64,000 nt of DNA, taken from Acidisoma sp. PAMC 29798 (GTDB taxonomy: Bacteria > Pseudomonadota > Alphaproteobacteria > Acetobacterales > Acetobacteraceae). The translations under genes and the position numbers were made by a program. The notes under the pieces were generated by a model. It was not told the origin of the DNA and searched no databases. It saw only the letters and a program-made list of their open reading frames with translations. The DNA is taken from positions 1,550,001 through 1,614,000 of the forward strand of contig NZ_CP126994.1 in assembly GCF_030252425.1 (NCBI RefSeq), written 5' to 3'. Shown here in pieces: positions 50,948-55,610 of the stretch. Within the stretch, counting starts at the first letter, position 1, and the number at the start of each line of letters is the position of its first letter.

Positions 50948-51844
50948 CTATGCCCAGGTGACTTCCGGCGGCAGGCTCATCAGGATCGCCTCGACATTGC
51001 CGCCGGTCTTGAGGCCGAACAGCGTGCCGCGATCGTAGAGCAGGTTGAACTCTACGTAGCGGCCCCGGCGCATCAATTGATGCGCGCGGTCTTCGCTCGT
51101 CCAGGGCAGATGCATCCGGCGCCGGACGATGGCGGGATAGGCGTTCAGGAAGGCGAGGCCGACATCGCGCGTGAAGCCGAAATCCGCCTCCACATCGCCG
51201 GTATTGTGCTGATCGTAGAAAATTCCGCCCAGGCCGCGCGGTTCGTCGCGGTGGGGGAGATAGAAATACGTGTCGCACCAGGCCTTGAAGCGTTCGTAGA
51301 AATCCGGCCCATGCGCGTCGCAGGCGGCCTGAAGGGCGGCATGAAAGGTCGCTCCGTCTGCCAGCGCGTCAGGCGCGTCGAGTCGCATCGGCGTCAGGTC
51401 GGCGCCGCCCGCGAACCAACCATGGCGCGTGATGAGCATGCGCGTATTCATATGAACGGCGGGCACCAAGGGGCTTTGCGGATGGGCGACGATGCTGATG
51501 CCCGAGGCCCAGAAGCGCGGATCGTCCGCCGCACCGGGAACCTTGTCGCGGAATTCGGGACTGAATTCGCCTGAGACGGTGGAGATATTGACGCCGACCT
51601 TCTCGAACACCCGGCCGCGCATCACGCTGGTGACGCCGCCACCGCCATGAGAGCCGTCCTGCGTCGGACGCTCCCAGCTGTTGCGGGTGAAGCGCCCGGC
51701 CGGCAGATGCGCGAGCGCGCCGGTCGCCTCTGTTTCGATCGTCTCGAAACTGTCGCAGATTTTGTCGCGGAGTTCGCGGAACCACGCCTGTGCGCGTTCG
51801 CGGATCGCGGCATGATCGGGAGCATCGTTAAATGCGTCGAGCAT
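50948..51844 (-). CDS. hemF: Oxygen-dependent coproporphyrinogen III oxidase
   Basis: Converts coproporphyrinogen III to protoporphyrinogen IX with oxygen in haem synthesis. Family segments include [45 protein letters not shown] and [14 protein letters not shown]. It is 298 aa from the ATG at 51844, which has AAGGA eight bases upstream; the longer open frame is not family-like. It is divergent from the petABC haem-protein operon. Confidence 0.95.
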
Positions 51845-52079: not shown

Positions 52080-52676
52080 ATGGCTGGACCTGCTGAGTCC
52101 CTTCCGACGGCCCATGTTGCCGGGCAAACTGCAAATGGGCATGACGCCCATGGGCATGAGGGGCCACGGCGCGATTTCCTGATCATGGCGCTGGCCTGCA
52201 CGGCAGCGGCCGGCCTCGCCATGGCCGTCTGGCCTTTCCTCGATGTCATGGATCCGCCGCGCGCCGTGGTTACGGCGTCGGATGTCAGCGTCAATCTGGG
52301 CAGCATTCCAGCCGGCAGCGGCATTACCGTGCTATGGCGCGGCCAGCCGATCCTGATCCGCCATCGCACACCGGCCGAGATCACCGCCGAGGCGAATGTC
52401 GATATCGATCTGCTGCGCGATTCCGAGAGCGACCTCGCCCGCGTCAAGACCGGCCATCCTGAGTTCATCGTGCTCTACGGCGTCTGCGACCGGAACGGCA
52501 TCGTGGCCGTTGGCAACAACCCATCGGACGCACGCGGCAAGTGGGGCGGTTGGACCTGCCCGACGAATGGCAGCGAATATGACACGTCGGGGCGCGTGCG
52601 CTCCGGCCCGGCGCGTAAGAATTTGGCCATCCCGCCCTATGATTTCTCGTCCGCCACCACGATAACCATCGGCTGA
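52080..52676 (+). CDS. petA: Rieske-type iron-sulfur subunit of bc1 complex, cluster ligands degenerate
   Basis: A 198-aa protein with the Tat-type start [16 protein letters not shown] and a membrane anchor typical of ubiquinol-cytochrome c reductase Rieske subunits. The C-terminal domain lines up well ([18 protein letters not shown], then [14 protein letters not shown]). The two cluster boxes, normally CTHLGC and CPCHGS, read CDRNGI (136-141) and CPTNGS (160-165). The ligand cysteines 136 and 160 stay, but both ligand histidines are Arg138 and Asn163. Both disulfide cysteines are Ile141 and Thr162. A normal [2Fe-2S] Rieske cluster is not expected. The start follows a GAGGT site. Confidence 0.93.
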
Positions 52677-52694: not shown

Positions 52695-53885
52695 ATGGCG
52701 ATCGAGACGAAAGCGGCTCCTCTGGATGGCCCAGCGCGGCCACGCTTCGGCAGCACCCTGGTGCCCCGCAGCCAGGGCCTGTTATGGCATTTCGGCATTC
52801 TCGCCGCCGTGTCCCTGGCTTTGATGATGGTCACCGGCCTGTTTCTGGCCATGAACTACGCCGTCGGGTCTTATCCCTTCGAGACGATCCAGTGGATCAT
52901 GCGCGGCGTCAGCTACGGCTGGCTCATTCGGCTGATGCATATGGCAGGCACCTCGATCTTCTTCATCATCGCCTTCATCAATCTGGGCCGCAGCCTCTAC
53001 TACGGCTCCTACAAGAAGCCGCGCGAGCGGATTTGGATGCTCGGTCTCGTCACGCTGATCCTGATGATGCTGACGGCTTATACCGGCTTCCTTCTGCCCT
53101 GGGGCCAGATGTCCTATTGGTCGACGCTCGCGCTCGCCAATGTGCTCGGCGGCTTCCCCTTCATCGGCCATAACGTGGTGCGCTGGATCCTCGGCGCGGA
53201 CGCTTTGAACGAAACGACGCTGACGCATTTCTACGTCTTCCACATCCTTCTGGCCTTCGCCGTCTGCGGCGCGGTCTTCATTCATGTCCGTGGCATCCGC
53301 TCCAGCAGCGTCCATGCCACGGAGAGTGAGCACCGTGGCCCGATGGTGCCGTACCATCCGTATTACACGGTGCGCGCGGCGCTGGCGGTTCTGGTCTTCC
53401 TCATCGTTTGCTCCATCGTCGTCTTCTTCATTCCCTATACCTTCGAGAATGCCGCGAACGCGTTGCCCGGCAATCCGCTGATCATGCCCACCAATGTGGT
53501 GCCGCAATGGTATTTGCTGCCTTTCTACGCCATGAGCCGCTGCGCCGAGAGCCACTTCATCGGACTGGTTCTGGTCGTCGCAGGCTGGGCTGTGCTGTTC
53601 CTGCTGCCCTGGCTCGATACCTCGCCGGTGCGCAGCGCCCGGTATCGGCCCTTGTTCCGGCCCGCGCTGATCGCCTTCTTCGTGTTGGTGATCCTGCTCG
53701 GCTGGGCGGGTGCGCATCCCACCACGGCAGGCTGGGTCTTCCTCGACCGGCTGTTCACGCTGCTCTATTTCGCCTTCTTCCTGATCGCGCTGCCGCTGCT
53801 GGGCGCGATCGAGACGCCGCGCGAGATGCCGGTGGTGCGATCCTCGGCATTGACGCCCCGATTGCATACGCAGGAGGCACGCTGA
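52695..53885 (+). CDS. petB: Cytochrome b of bc1 complex, one haem ligand and PEWY altered
   Basis: A 396-aa membrane protein with the cytochrome b layout of about eight helices (GSYKKPRERIWMLG, LLPWGQMSYW). In helix B His82 is kept, but the residue 14 further, where the second haem histidine belongs, is Asn96 (FINLGRSLYYGS). In helix D both histidines, 183 and 197, are present. By family numbering the missing one is a haem bH ligand. The Qo motif PEWY reads PQWY (270-273). Frame and membrane segments are intact. GGGGAG precedes the ATG. Confidence 0.95.
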   Translation: MAIETKAAPLDGPARPRFGSTLVPRSQGLLWHFGILAAVSLALMMVTGLFLAMNYAVGSYPFETIQWIMRGVSYGWLIRLMHMAGTSIFFIIAFINLGRSLYYGSYKKPRERIWMLGLVTLILMMLTAYTGFLLPWGQMSYWSTLALANVLGGFPFIGHNVVRWILGADALNETTLTHFYVFHILLAFAVCGAVFIHVRGIRSSSVHATESEHRGPMVPYHPYYTVRAALAVLVFLIVCSIVVFFIPYTFENAANALPGNPLIMPTNVVPQWYLLPFYAMSRCAESHFIGLVLVVAGWAVLFLLPWLDTSPVRSARYRPLFRPALIAFFVLVILLGWAGAHPTTAGWVFLDRLFTLLYFAFFLIALPLLGAIETPREMPVVRSSALTPRLHTQEAR

Positions 53886-54718
53886 TGCGCCGCCTGAGCT
53901 TCACATCCGGCTTCGCCGCGCTCCTCGCGCTCGGTCTGGCCGCTGCCATGACGCCCGTCCGCGCCGACGAAGGTGGCGCGGAAGGCGGCAAGGCCATCAA
54001 CACGTCCTCGACGTCATGGGGCTTTCGCGGTCCGCTCGGAACCTATGACCGCGCCGCCCTTCAGCGCGGCTTTCAGGTGTATGAGCAGGCCTGCGCCGCC
54101 TGCCATTCCATCCGCGATCTTCGTTTCGGTGACCTGGAGGGGATCGGCCTTTCCCCGCATCAAGCGGCGGCCATGGCCTCCACGGCCATGGTGCCGGGCG
54201 GTGTCGATGCCATGGGCCTGCCCGTTCTGCGCCCCGGCGTGCCGGCCGACCGCTTTCCCAACCCGTTCCTGAACCCTCAGGCTGCGCGCGCCGCCAATTA
54301 CGGTGCCTATCCGCCCGATCTGAGCCTGATCGTGCCACAGCGCGCTTTCGTTCCGATGAGCCCCGGCGGCGTCACCTACCTCGACGACCTGCTGACCAGC
54401 TACGGCGATGCCCCGCCGGGTGTGACGCTGTTCCCGAACCGTAGCTTCAACACGGCCTTCCCCGGCAACCAGATCGCCATGGCCAATCCGCTGCATGACG
54501 GGCAGATGACCTTCGCAGACGGCACCAAGGCGACGGTTCCGGAAATGTCGCATGACGTCACGACATTCCTCGCCTGGGCTGCCGATCCTACGGTCGAGGA
54601 GCGGCGCGGGGATGGCGTGCGTGTCGTCCTGTTCCTCTGCTTCCTGGCCTTCCTGACCCTGCTGTTCAAGCGGCGCATCTGGTCGGCGCTCCCCCATGCC
54701 GAACCCGACCATGGATGA
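53885..54718 (+). CDS. petC: Cytochrome c1 of bc1 complex
   Basis: A 277-aa exported haem protein. After a signal peptide (ending VRADE) comes the covalent haem site CAACH (Cys70, Cys73, His74). The axial Met is Met199 in QIAMANPL, and a C-terminal membrane anchor (VVLFLCFLAFLTLLF) is present. Its residues look normal, unlike its two partners. The ATG shares a base with the petB stop and has AGGAGG upstream. Confidence 0.95.
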   Translation: MRRLSFTSGFAALLALGLAAAMTPVRADEGGAEGGKAINTSSTSWGFRGPLGTYDRAALQRGFQVYEQACAACHSIRDLRFGDLEGIGLSPHQAAAMASTAMVPGGVDAMGLPVLRPGVPADRFPNPFLNPQAARAANYGAYPPDLSLIVPQRAFVPMSPGGVTYLDDLLTSYGDAPPGVTLFPNRSFNTAFPGNQIAMANPLHDGQMTFADGTKATVPEMSHDVTTFLAWAADPTVEERRGDGVRVVLFLCFLAFLTLLFKRRIWSALPHAEPDHG

Positions 54719-54722
54719 TCCG

Positions 54723-55610
54723 ATGAGCGAAACCATCGAACCCCTGCTCGGAGTCATCGGCGGCTCCGGCCTGTATGACATCGCGGATCTGGAAGAGCGG
54801 GAGTGGCGCCGGGTCGAGACGCCCTGGGGTCCGCCATCCGATGAGCTGATGTTCGGCCGCCTGCACGGCTTGCGCTGCGTCTTCCTGCCGCGCCATGGCC
54901 GTGGCCATCCGCTGCCGCCCTCCGACCTGAACTACCGCGCCAATATCGACGCGCTGAAGCGGGTCGGGGTGACGGACATCATTTCCCTCTCCGCCGTGGG
55001 CAGTCTTCAGGAAGAGTTGCCGCCGGGCCATTTCGTGGTCATCGACCAGTTCATCGACCGCACCTTCGCCCGCGAAAAGAGCTTTTTCGGCCCCGGCTGC
55101 GTCGCCCATGTCTCCATGGCGCAGCCTGTCTGTTCCCGTTTGGGCGATGCGCTGGAACAGGTGGCGCGTGACCTTGGCCTGCCGGTGTCGCGCGGCGGCA
55201 CCTACCTCACGATGGAGGGGCCGCAGTTCTCGACCTTCGCCGAGAGCACCCTCTATCGCGCCTGGGGCTGTAGCGTCATCGGCATGACGAATATGCCGGA
55301 GGCCAAGCTCGCTCGTGAAGCCGAGATTTGTTACGCGACCGTCGCCATGGTCACGGATTACGATTGCTGGCGTGAAGGCCATGATGCCGTCACGGTCGAT
55401 GAAGTCGTGAAGACGTTGTTCGCCAATGCCGACAACGCCCGCAACCTCGTCCGCGCCGTGCTGCCAGCGGTGGGCGCGCCACGCGGCCTGTGTTCTGCCG
55501 GCTGTGACCGCGCCTTGACCTATAGCCTGATCACCGCGCCGTCGCATCGCGATCCGGCGCTGGTGGCCAAGCTCGATGTCGTTGCCGGGCGGGTTCTGTC
55601 TGCGCGCTAA
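54723..55610 (+). CDS. mtnP: S-methyl-5'-thioadenosine phosphorylase
   Basis: Phosphorolyses methylthioadenosine to adenine and methylthioribose 1-phosphate in methionine salvage. GVIGGSGLYDI at the start, LPRHGRGHPLPPSDLNYRAN and TMEGPQFSTFAES are diagnostic. The start at MSETIEP (54723) follows petC by 4 bases; ATG 54711 inside petC is an alternative. 295 aa. Confidence 0.95.
   Translation: MSETIEPLLGVIGGSGLYDIADLEEREWRRVETPWGPPSDELMFGRLHGLRCVFLPRHGRGHPLPPSDLNYRANIDALKRVGVTDIISLSAVGSLQEELPPGHFVVIDQFIDRTFAREKSFFGPGCVAHVSMAQPVCSRLGDALEQVARDLGLPVSRGGTYLTMEGPQFSTFAESTLYRAWGCSVIGMTNMPEAKLAREAEICYATVAMVTDYDCWREGHDAVTVDEVVKTLFANADNARNLVRAVLPAVGAPRGLCSAGCDRALTYSLITAPSHRDPALVAKLDVVAGRVLSAR

Follow-up and report, generated by a model that had tools for sequence, protein, structure and literature searches.

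Within the window, by which we mean the whole 64,000-nucleotide stretch of the Acidisoma sp. PAMC 29798 genome that was analysed, three consecutive plus-strand genes form a petABC operon for the cytochrome bc1 complex: petA for the Rieske iron-sulfur protein (52080..52676), petB for cytochrome b (52695..53885) and petC for cytochrome c1 (53885..54718). The operon is flanked by a divergent hemF-like gene on the minus strand (50948..51814, the matched part, its true start not being fixed), which we take to encode coproporphyrinogen III oxidase, and downstream by an mtnP-like gene on the plus strand (54696..55610, from the open reading frame and locus comparison), presumably for 5'-methylthioadenosine phosphorylase.

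The petB frame has no internal stop and encodes 396 residues that scored above the cut-offs of PF00033, PF13631 and PF00032 in a profile search and matched solved bc1 cytochrome b chains with a best E-value of 2.7e-74. Residue alignment bore out what the first-pass annotation had read: helix B carries His82 (52938, CAT) and, 14 residues further on, Asn96 (AAT, 52980..52982) where the second histidine should be, helix D has both His183 and His197, and the Qo-site PEWY motif reads PQWY (53502..53513, with Gln271 at 53505, CAA). The bL ligands H82 and H183 are kept, and H197 remains from the bH pair. Alignment with PDB 5kkz places these sites, in Rhodobacter sphaeroides numbering, at H97, N for H111, H198, H212 and Q for E295.

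The comparison set holds 108 further cytochrome b loci, taken from genome searches (28) and genome contigs (80); since these were the query's best hits, the sample is tilted to ordinary forms. All 108 have His at position 111, and the window and a sister genome, G002, have Asn. The first-pass annotation had suggested aligning Acetobacteraceae in case close relatives with active bc1 shared the residue, and had considered a ligand supplied from nearby; Acetobacteraceae are among the 108 loci, none of which has the Asn, and comparison across loci found no conserved substitute near Asn96 in helix B, which argues against a neighbouring replacement. Three of the four histidines that a functional bc1 uses for bL and bH (H97, H198, H212) are thus present in both Acidisoma proteins, and H111 is Asn. 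PQWY also departs from the motif expected of a functional Qo site, a weak criterion since Glu occupies position 295 in just 85 of the 108 loci (Val in 14, Asn in 7, Leu in 2). The 23 loci lacking this Glu keep the other ligands (the sole exception among the 108 is L104, with Lys at H212), and we rejected PQWY as stand-alone evidence of a broken Qo site. The functional weight that the first-pass annotation gave to both changes therefore stands for the bH ligand and is weak for PQWY.

Additional losses lie at the Qi site, where H217, K251 and D252 are replaced by R, R and A in both species (in the window Arg202 at 53298..53300 and Arg227-Ala228 at 53373..53378, all plus strand). Of 87 conserved cytochrome b columns, both species keep 61, a further 12 are kept by one of the two, and 14 have changed in both. 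Among the columns lost are H111 and the three Qi residues, plus G158, A159, T288 and L305, which we take to lie near Qo. The bL ligands H97 and H198 are kept in both, as are P294, W296, Y297 and Y302.

One comparison protein deserves separate mention. The cytochrome b of Sphingomonas sp. BN140010 (L104:6538-6540) has Lys at the bH ligand position H212, encoded by AAA, two changes from CAC, the only such case among the 108 loci, and it may represent naturally occurring His-Lys coordination of haem bH. The available text of PMC4807273 states that Lys had not been reported as a ligand of any membrane-bound haem in nature, and describes an engineered H212K as functional.

The adjoining Rieske protein, encoded directly upstream of petB, has a defect of its own that the first-pass annotation had missed. 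It scores above the cut-off of TIGR01416 and below that of PF00355, and residue alignment shows that cluster-binding loop 1 reads CDRNGI for CTHLGC (52485..52502) and loop 2 CPTNG for CPCHG (52557..52571; CPTNGS for CPCHGS), again on the plus strand. The ligand cysteines C136 and C160 are kept; both ligand histidines (R138 and N163) and both disulfide cysteines (I141 and T162) are gone. All six residues are present wherever else a petA was detected (99 loci), the remaining nine of the 108 having no petA in the stretch examined. In G002 the motifs are CGPDGC and CPCTGS, with both histidines lost and the disulfide cysteines kept, so that the C-x-H and C-x-x-H pattern of a functional bc1 retains its Cys pair and lacks its His pair in both species. 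The His replacements differ between the two (R/P and N/T, window genome/G002), which argues against a new common ligand. Conservation of at least 95% marks 30 Rieske columns; both species keep 21 of them, and seven of the nine changed columns sit in the two cluster loops. Elsewhere in Acetobacteraceae, five loci (L046, L050, L054, L071, L094) have no petA detected near petBC, with hemF adjoining petB, and the available text of PMC10715153 describes a split petA in acetous taxa.

Cytochrome c1 retains its haem ligands. The petC product (PF02167, 3.1e-71) keeps the CxxCH haem motif (C70, C73, H74) and Met199, the residues that a functional c1 has, and of 19 conserved columns the window genome keeps all and G002 keeps 17, the CxxCH and Met among them. 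At three other Acetobacteraceae loci (L035:5920-7899, L039:5920-7899, L041:2074-4230) a single open frame spans petB and petC, apparent cytochrome b-c1 fusions.

We rejected a sequencing error or a lone pseudogene, as G002 has the same state with three open frames. The first-pass annotation had held a normal Q cycle impossible, and it understated the loss, having missed the Rieske histidines and the Qi residues. Judged by its ligands, the complex has almost certainly lost Q-cycle function: the ligand losses are seen directly, and the Rieske cluster, haem bH and a working Qi site should all be absent, so that it would carry out no quinol oxidation by the Q cycle. A second, working bc1 in the window genome was rejected as well, since cytochrome b and c1 are each single-copy and a genome search found no further copy of either; PF00355 has 11 matches there, and its cut-off admits oxygenases and ferredoxins alongside the Rieske proteins of bc1.

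We next consider descent in a genus sample of five Acidisoma genomes, G000 (the window genome) and G001 to G004. Both petB and petC are present in two, G000 and G002, which agree in the Asn and in PQWY; the other three lack them, and their hemF-like and mtnP-like genes adjoin. The hemF-pet-mtnP order also occurs in ordinary Acetobacteraceae loci, and the operon was therefore inherited at its original site. A tree built from the neighbours hemF and mtnP groups G000 with G002 (96/91), then G001, then G003 with G004, and if inheritance was vertical petABC would have been lost at least twice in the genus. In a family scan 349 of 397 genomes had a petA match, and among the 30 petA loci read, all 28 outside the genus have intact motifs.

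To estimate constraint we fitted pairwise GY94 codon models (custom script) to G000 and G002, the dN/dS check for purifying selection that the first-pass annotation had proposed. Omega was 0.120 for petA, 0.060 for petB, 0.058 for petC and 0.064 for mtnP, and omega = 1 was rejected for each (2dlnL 70, 246, 173 and 200, respectively), at dS values that are saturated (2.38, 3.15, 3.70 and 1.39). Three ordinary pairs gave 0.040-0.069 for petA; petB was 0.015 in one of them, and in the other two, where petB and petC form one frame and were scored jointly, omega was 0.047 and 0.052. Constraint on petABC is thus present, if slightly below the ordinary level, and it is lowest on the Rieske protein. 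The same pattern in a sister species together with omega of 0.06-0.12 means that the pet genes are not freely decaying, and selection very probably maintains the operon in this species pair, the one pair on which the purifying selection rests. Rates along the tree differ between subunits: the cytochrome b stem of the genus measures 1.35, compared with a median of 0.12 for end branches, and change later slowed, to 0.39 and 0.18; the c1 stem is far shorter, at 0.29 after a shared 0.32, with a median end branch of 0.25. We dropped nhaP as a selection control for this pair because its fit was at its limit (dS 71).

The two species with petABC also share an oxidase. The window genome has two haem-copper oxidases, one of aa3 and one of bo3 type. 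Its aa3 set comprises a CoxB with a CuA motif (CNQICGTNHDSM, with Gln where Glu is usual, as read by eye), a CtaD above cut-off and a haem O synthase; the best model for the bo3-type enzyme is CyoB, yet it scores below the CyoB cut-off. The ctaD of G002 shows 92.8% identity over residues 193-550 and ends at the contig end, and a PF00115 piece at the end of its contig C83 is presumably the other half. All COX1 matches of G001, G003 and G004 are nearer to CyoB than to CtaD. Both genomes that carry petABC thus have an aa3-type ctaD, and the three that lack petABC have none, a co-occurrence that, with five genomes and two inferred losses, offers too few events for significance. Haem A synthase was found in G000, G001 and G002, and cytochrome c assembly proteins (PF01578) in all five genomes. 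Two PF01578 matches of equal score (121.5 bits) in the window genome (G000:C1:642652-643164 and 903935-904447) are perhaps a duplicated ccmC.

A profile search of the window genome found no NrfD-type alternative complex III, nor was another quinol:cytochrome c route found in it. NrfD occurs within the genus in G002 only, which may therefore have such a route. At L129 (G002:C45) an NrfD-type protein adjoins a small cytochrome of c type and a fusion of a CuA oxidase subunit with a further c-type cytochrome, in what looks like an alternative complex III with a caa3 oxidase.

Published phenotypes bear on the oxidase in both directions. The available text of PMC8537097 scores A. silvae and A. cellulosilytica as oxidase-negative and A. 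tundrae and A. sibiricum as positive, which is consistent with aa3 loss in G003 and probably in G004. It also states a cytochrome c oxidase complex for the genomes of both A. silvae and A. cellulosilytica, which does not fit our scoring of aa3-less genomes unless bo3 subunits were meant.

Parallel and intermediate states appeared in a second genus, g112, from which six genomes were chosen for a weak or absent petA match in the family scan. All six have petB, with both bH histidines lost and both bL histidines kept. Four Rieske proteins lack all four ligands and keep the disulfide pair (4/4), and G115 has no room for petA. In G213 all six Rieske residues are kept, with Ala and Phe at two positions that, according to the available text of PMC10715153, tune the potential. 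Its locus (L192:8658-10488) thus pairs a fully liganded Rieske protein with a cytochrome b from which both bH histidines are missing, and may encode a linear bc1 that runs no Q cycle. The c1 proteins have CxxCH in all six genomes and the Met ligand in four of the five that are readable there (G372 ends at a contig end); the shortened c1 of G278 has no aligned Met, so c1 is not always spared. Omega for petB was 0.28-0.45 in three pairs, below 1 yet relaxed. For petC, the G213-G115 pair was dropped with its fit at the limit (dS 92), and the L194-L195 pair (68 codons at a contig end) gave 0.74, not distinct from 1.

Read on trees of limited resolution, these states suggest that the loss of bH preceded that of the Rieske cluster, and that there were three or more separate inactivations of the Rieske protein: in Acidisoma, in G115, and once or more among the ancestors of the remaining four g112 genomes. 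We did not adopt a common origin of the bH loss for the two genera. They are joined in the c1 tree (100/98) and, weakly and with long branches, in the cytochrome b tree (51/34), and the hemF and mtnP tree gives no decision.

For Acidisoma we favour the following reading. An ordinary Acetobacteraceae petABC operon was inherited in place and disarmed; cytochrome c1 would stay redox-active, held by cytochrome b and a cluster-free Rieske scaffold; and c1 would hand electrons from putative non-quinol periplasmic donors to the aa3 cytochrome c oxidase, perhaps in a III-IV type assembly. That petABC is retained as a platform for c1 serving the aa3 oxidase is an inferred best guess to which we give an even chance. 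It is favoured by the loss of the Rieske histidines, the bH histidine and the Qi residues in both species, the differing Rieske His replacements, the conserved c1, the low omega, the gene order common to ordinary relatives, the co-occurrence with ctaD, the PF01578 proteins in all five genomes and the negative NrfD search in the window genome. Against it count the saturated dS, the non-significance of the aa3 link, the Met-less c1 of G278, the conflict with the available text of PMC8537097 and a differing published explanation built on complex I.

That explanation, put forward by Degli Esposti et al. 2023 in the available text of PMC10715153, holds that the dead complex is kept to stabilise complex I. 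Purifying selection on all three subunits suits any structural role, including this one, but NuoD scores above cut-off in all five Acidisoma genomes, so that complex I genes are kept without petABC in three of them, which weakens the idea, and a structural role leaves the intact c1 haem ligands unexplained; we consider it unlikely. A useless operon on its way out would account for the three relatives in which petABC is missing and its neighbours adjoin, for the fast cytochrome b stem and for the higher petB omega in g112. Three intact frames in two species despite saturated synonymous sites, the omega of 0.06-0.12 and the conservation of bL and c1 haem ligands in both make such decay quite unlikely.

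Haem bL might instead carry out some other redox chemistry on the Qo side, its partner being quinone, superoxide or a different small oxidant, for instance. In favour of this, both species retain H97, H198 and the near-Qo P294, W296, Y297 and Y302. The conserved columns next to Qo that have changed (G158, A159, T288, L305) speak against it, and with the cluster missing we know of no path from bL to c1, which leaves this reading very unlikely. A bc1 still working through substitute ligands or cofactors from elsewhere is scarcely credible. Ligand changes are not always fatal, because Lys can stand in for a bH His in Rhodobacter capsulatus according to the available text of PMC4807273; the residue here, however, is Asn, the same text calls the partner-ligand change H212N a bH knock-out, the Rieske His replacements are not common to both species, and the genome has no second cytochrome b or c1.

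Extending retention of c1 for the aa3 oxidase beyond Acidisoma, bc1 may have been converted repeatedly and stepwise, bH and Qi going first (the G213 state) and then the Rieske cluster, in at least three separate lines, with c1 usually spared and kept by selection; we regard this wider scheme as possible but doubtful. If the points added here hold, a textbook energy-converting complex would be reused for its frame and its c1 and not for its Q cycle, and the persistence of dead bc1 genes would become a testable question, as complex I stabilisation and partnership with aa3 make opposite predictions for Acidisoma strains with and without petABC.

In a literature search we found no paper on H111N with haem bH and none on bc1 as a pseudoenzyme, and for degenerate complex III the matches listed held unrelated titles only. 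Compared with the ordinary alphaproteobacterial bc1 of R. sphaeroides (PDB 5kkz), the window is alike in operon order, length and bL and c1 ligands, and differs in lacking the Rieske histidines, the bH ligand, the Qi residues and the PEWY Glu. The R. capsulatus bH knock-out H212N, as given in the available text of PMC4807273, likewise turns one bH His into Asn, whereas in nature the histidine replaced is the one in helix B (H111), and the Rieske ligands are lost as well.

The kind of system is already known. In its available text PMC10715153 describes a "deranged" bc1 in acidophilic Acetobacteraceae (Acidocella, Acidiphilium and one Acidisoma), the genus of the window genome thus falling within this group: Acidiphilium has no ISP gene and no bH histidines, Acidocella has lost three or four Rieske ligands, and the single Acidisoma keeps petABC with 'intermediate features'. 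There too c1 is intact and a functional-looking cytochrome oxidase is kept, for which iron oxidation is proposed as an electron source alongside the complex I role. The window resembles that description in Rieske and bH-side ligand loss, retained petABC, intact c1 and retained oxidase. It differs in the Rieske disulfide cysteines, lost in the window and kept in G002 and in all four ligand-less g112 proteins. The paper's main text has no selection test and no mention of PEWY, and it calls bH and Rieske losses always associated, to which G213, with intact Rieske ligands and no bH ligands, is an exception. New here are the selection test, the co-occurrence of petABC with aa3 and not with complex I, the lost Qi residues and G213 as an intermediate.
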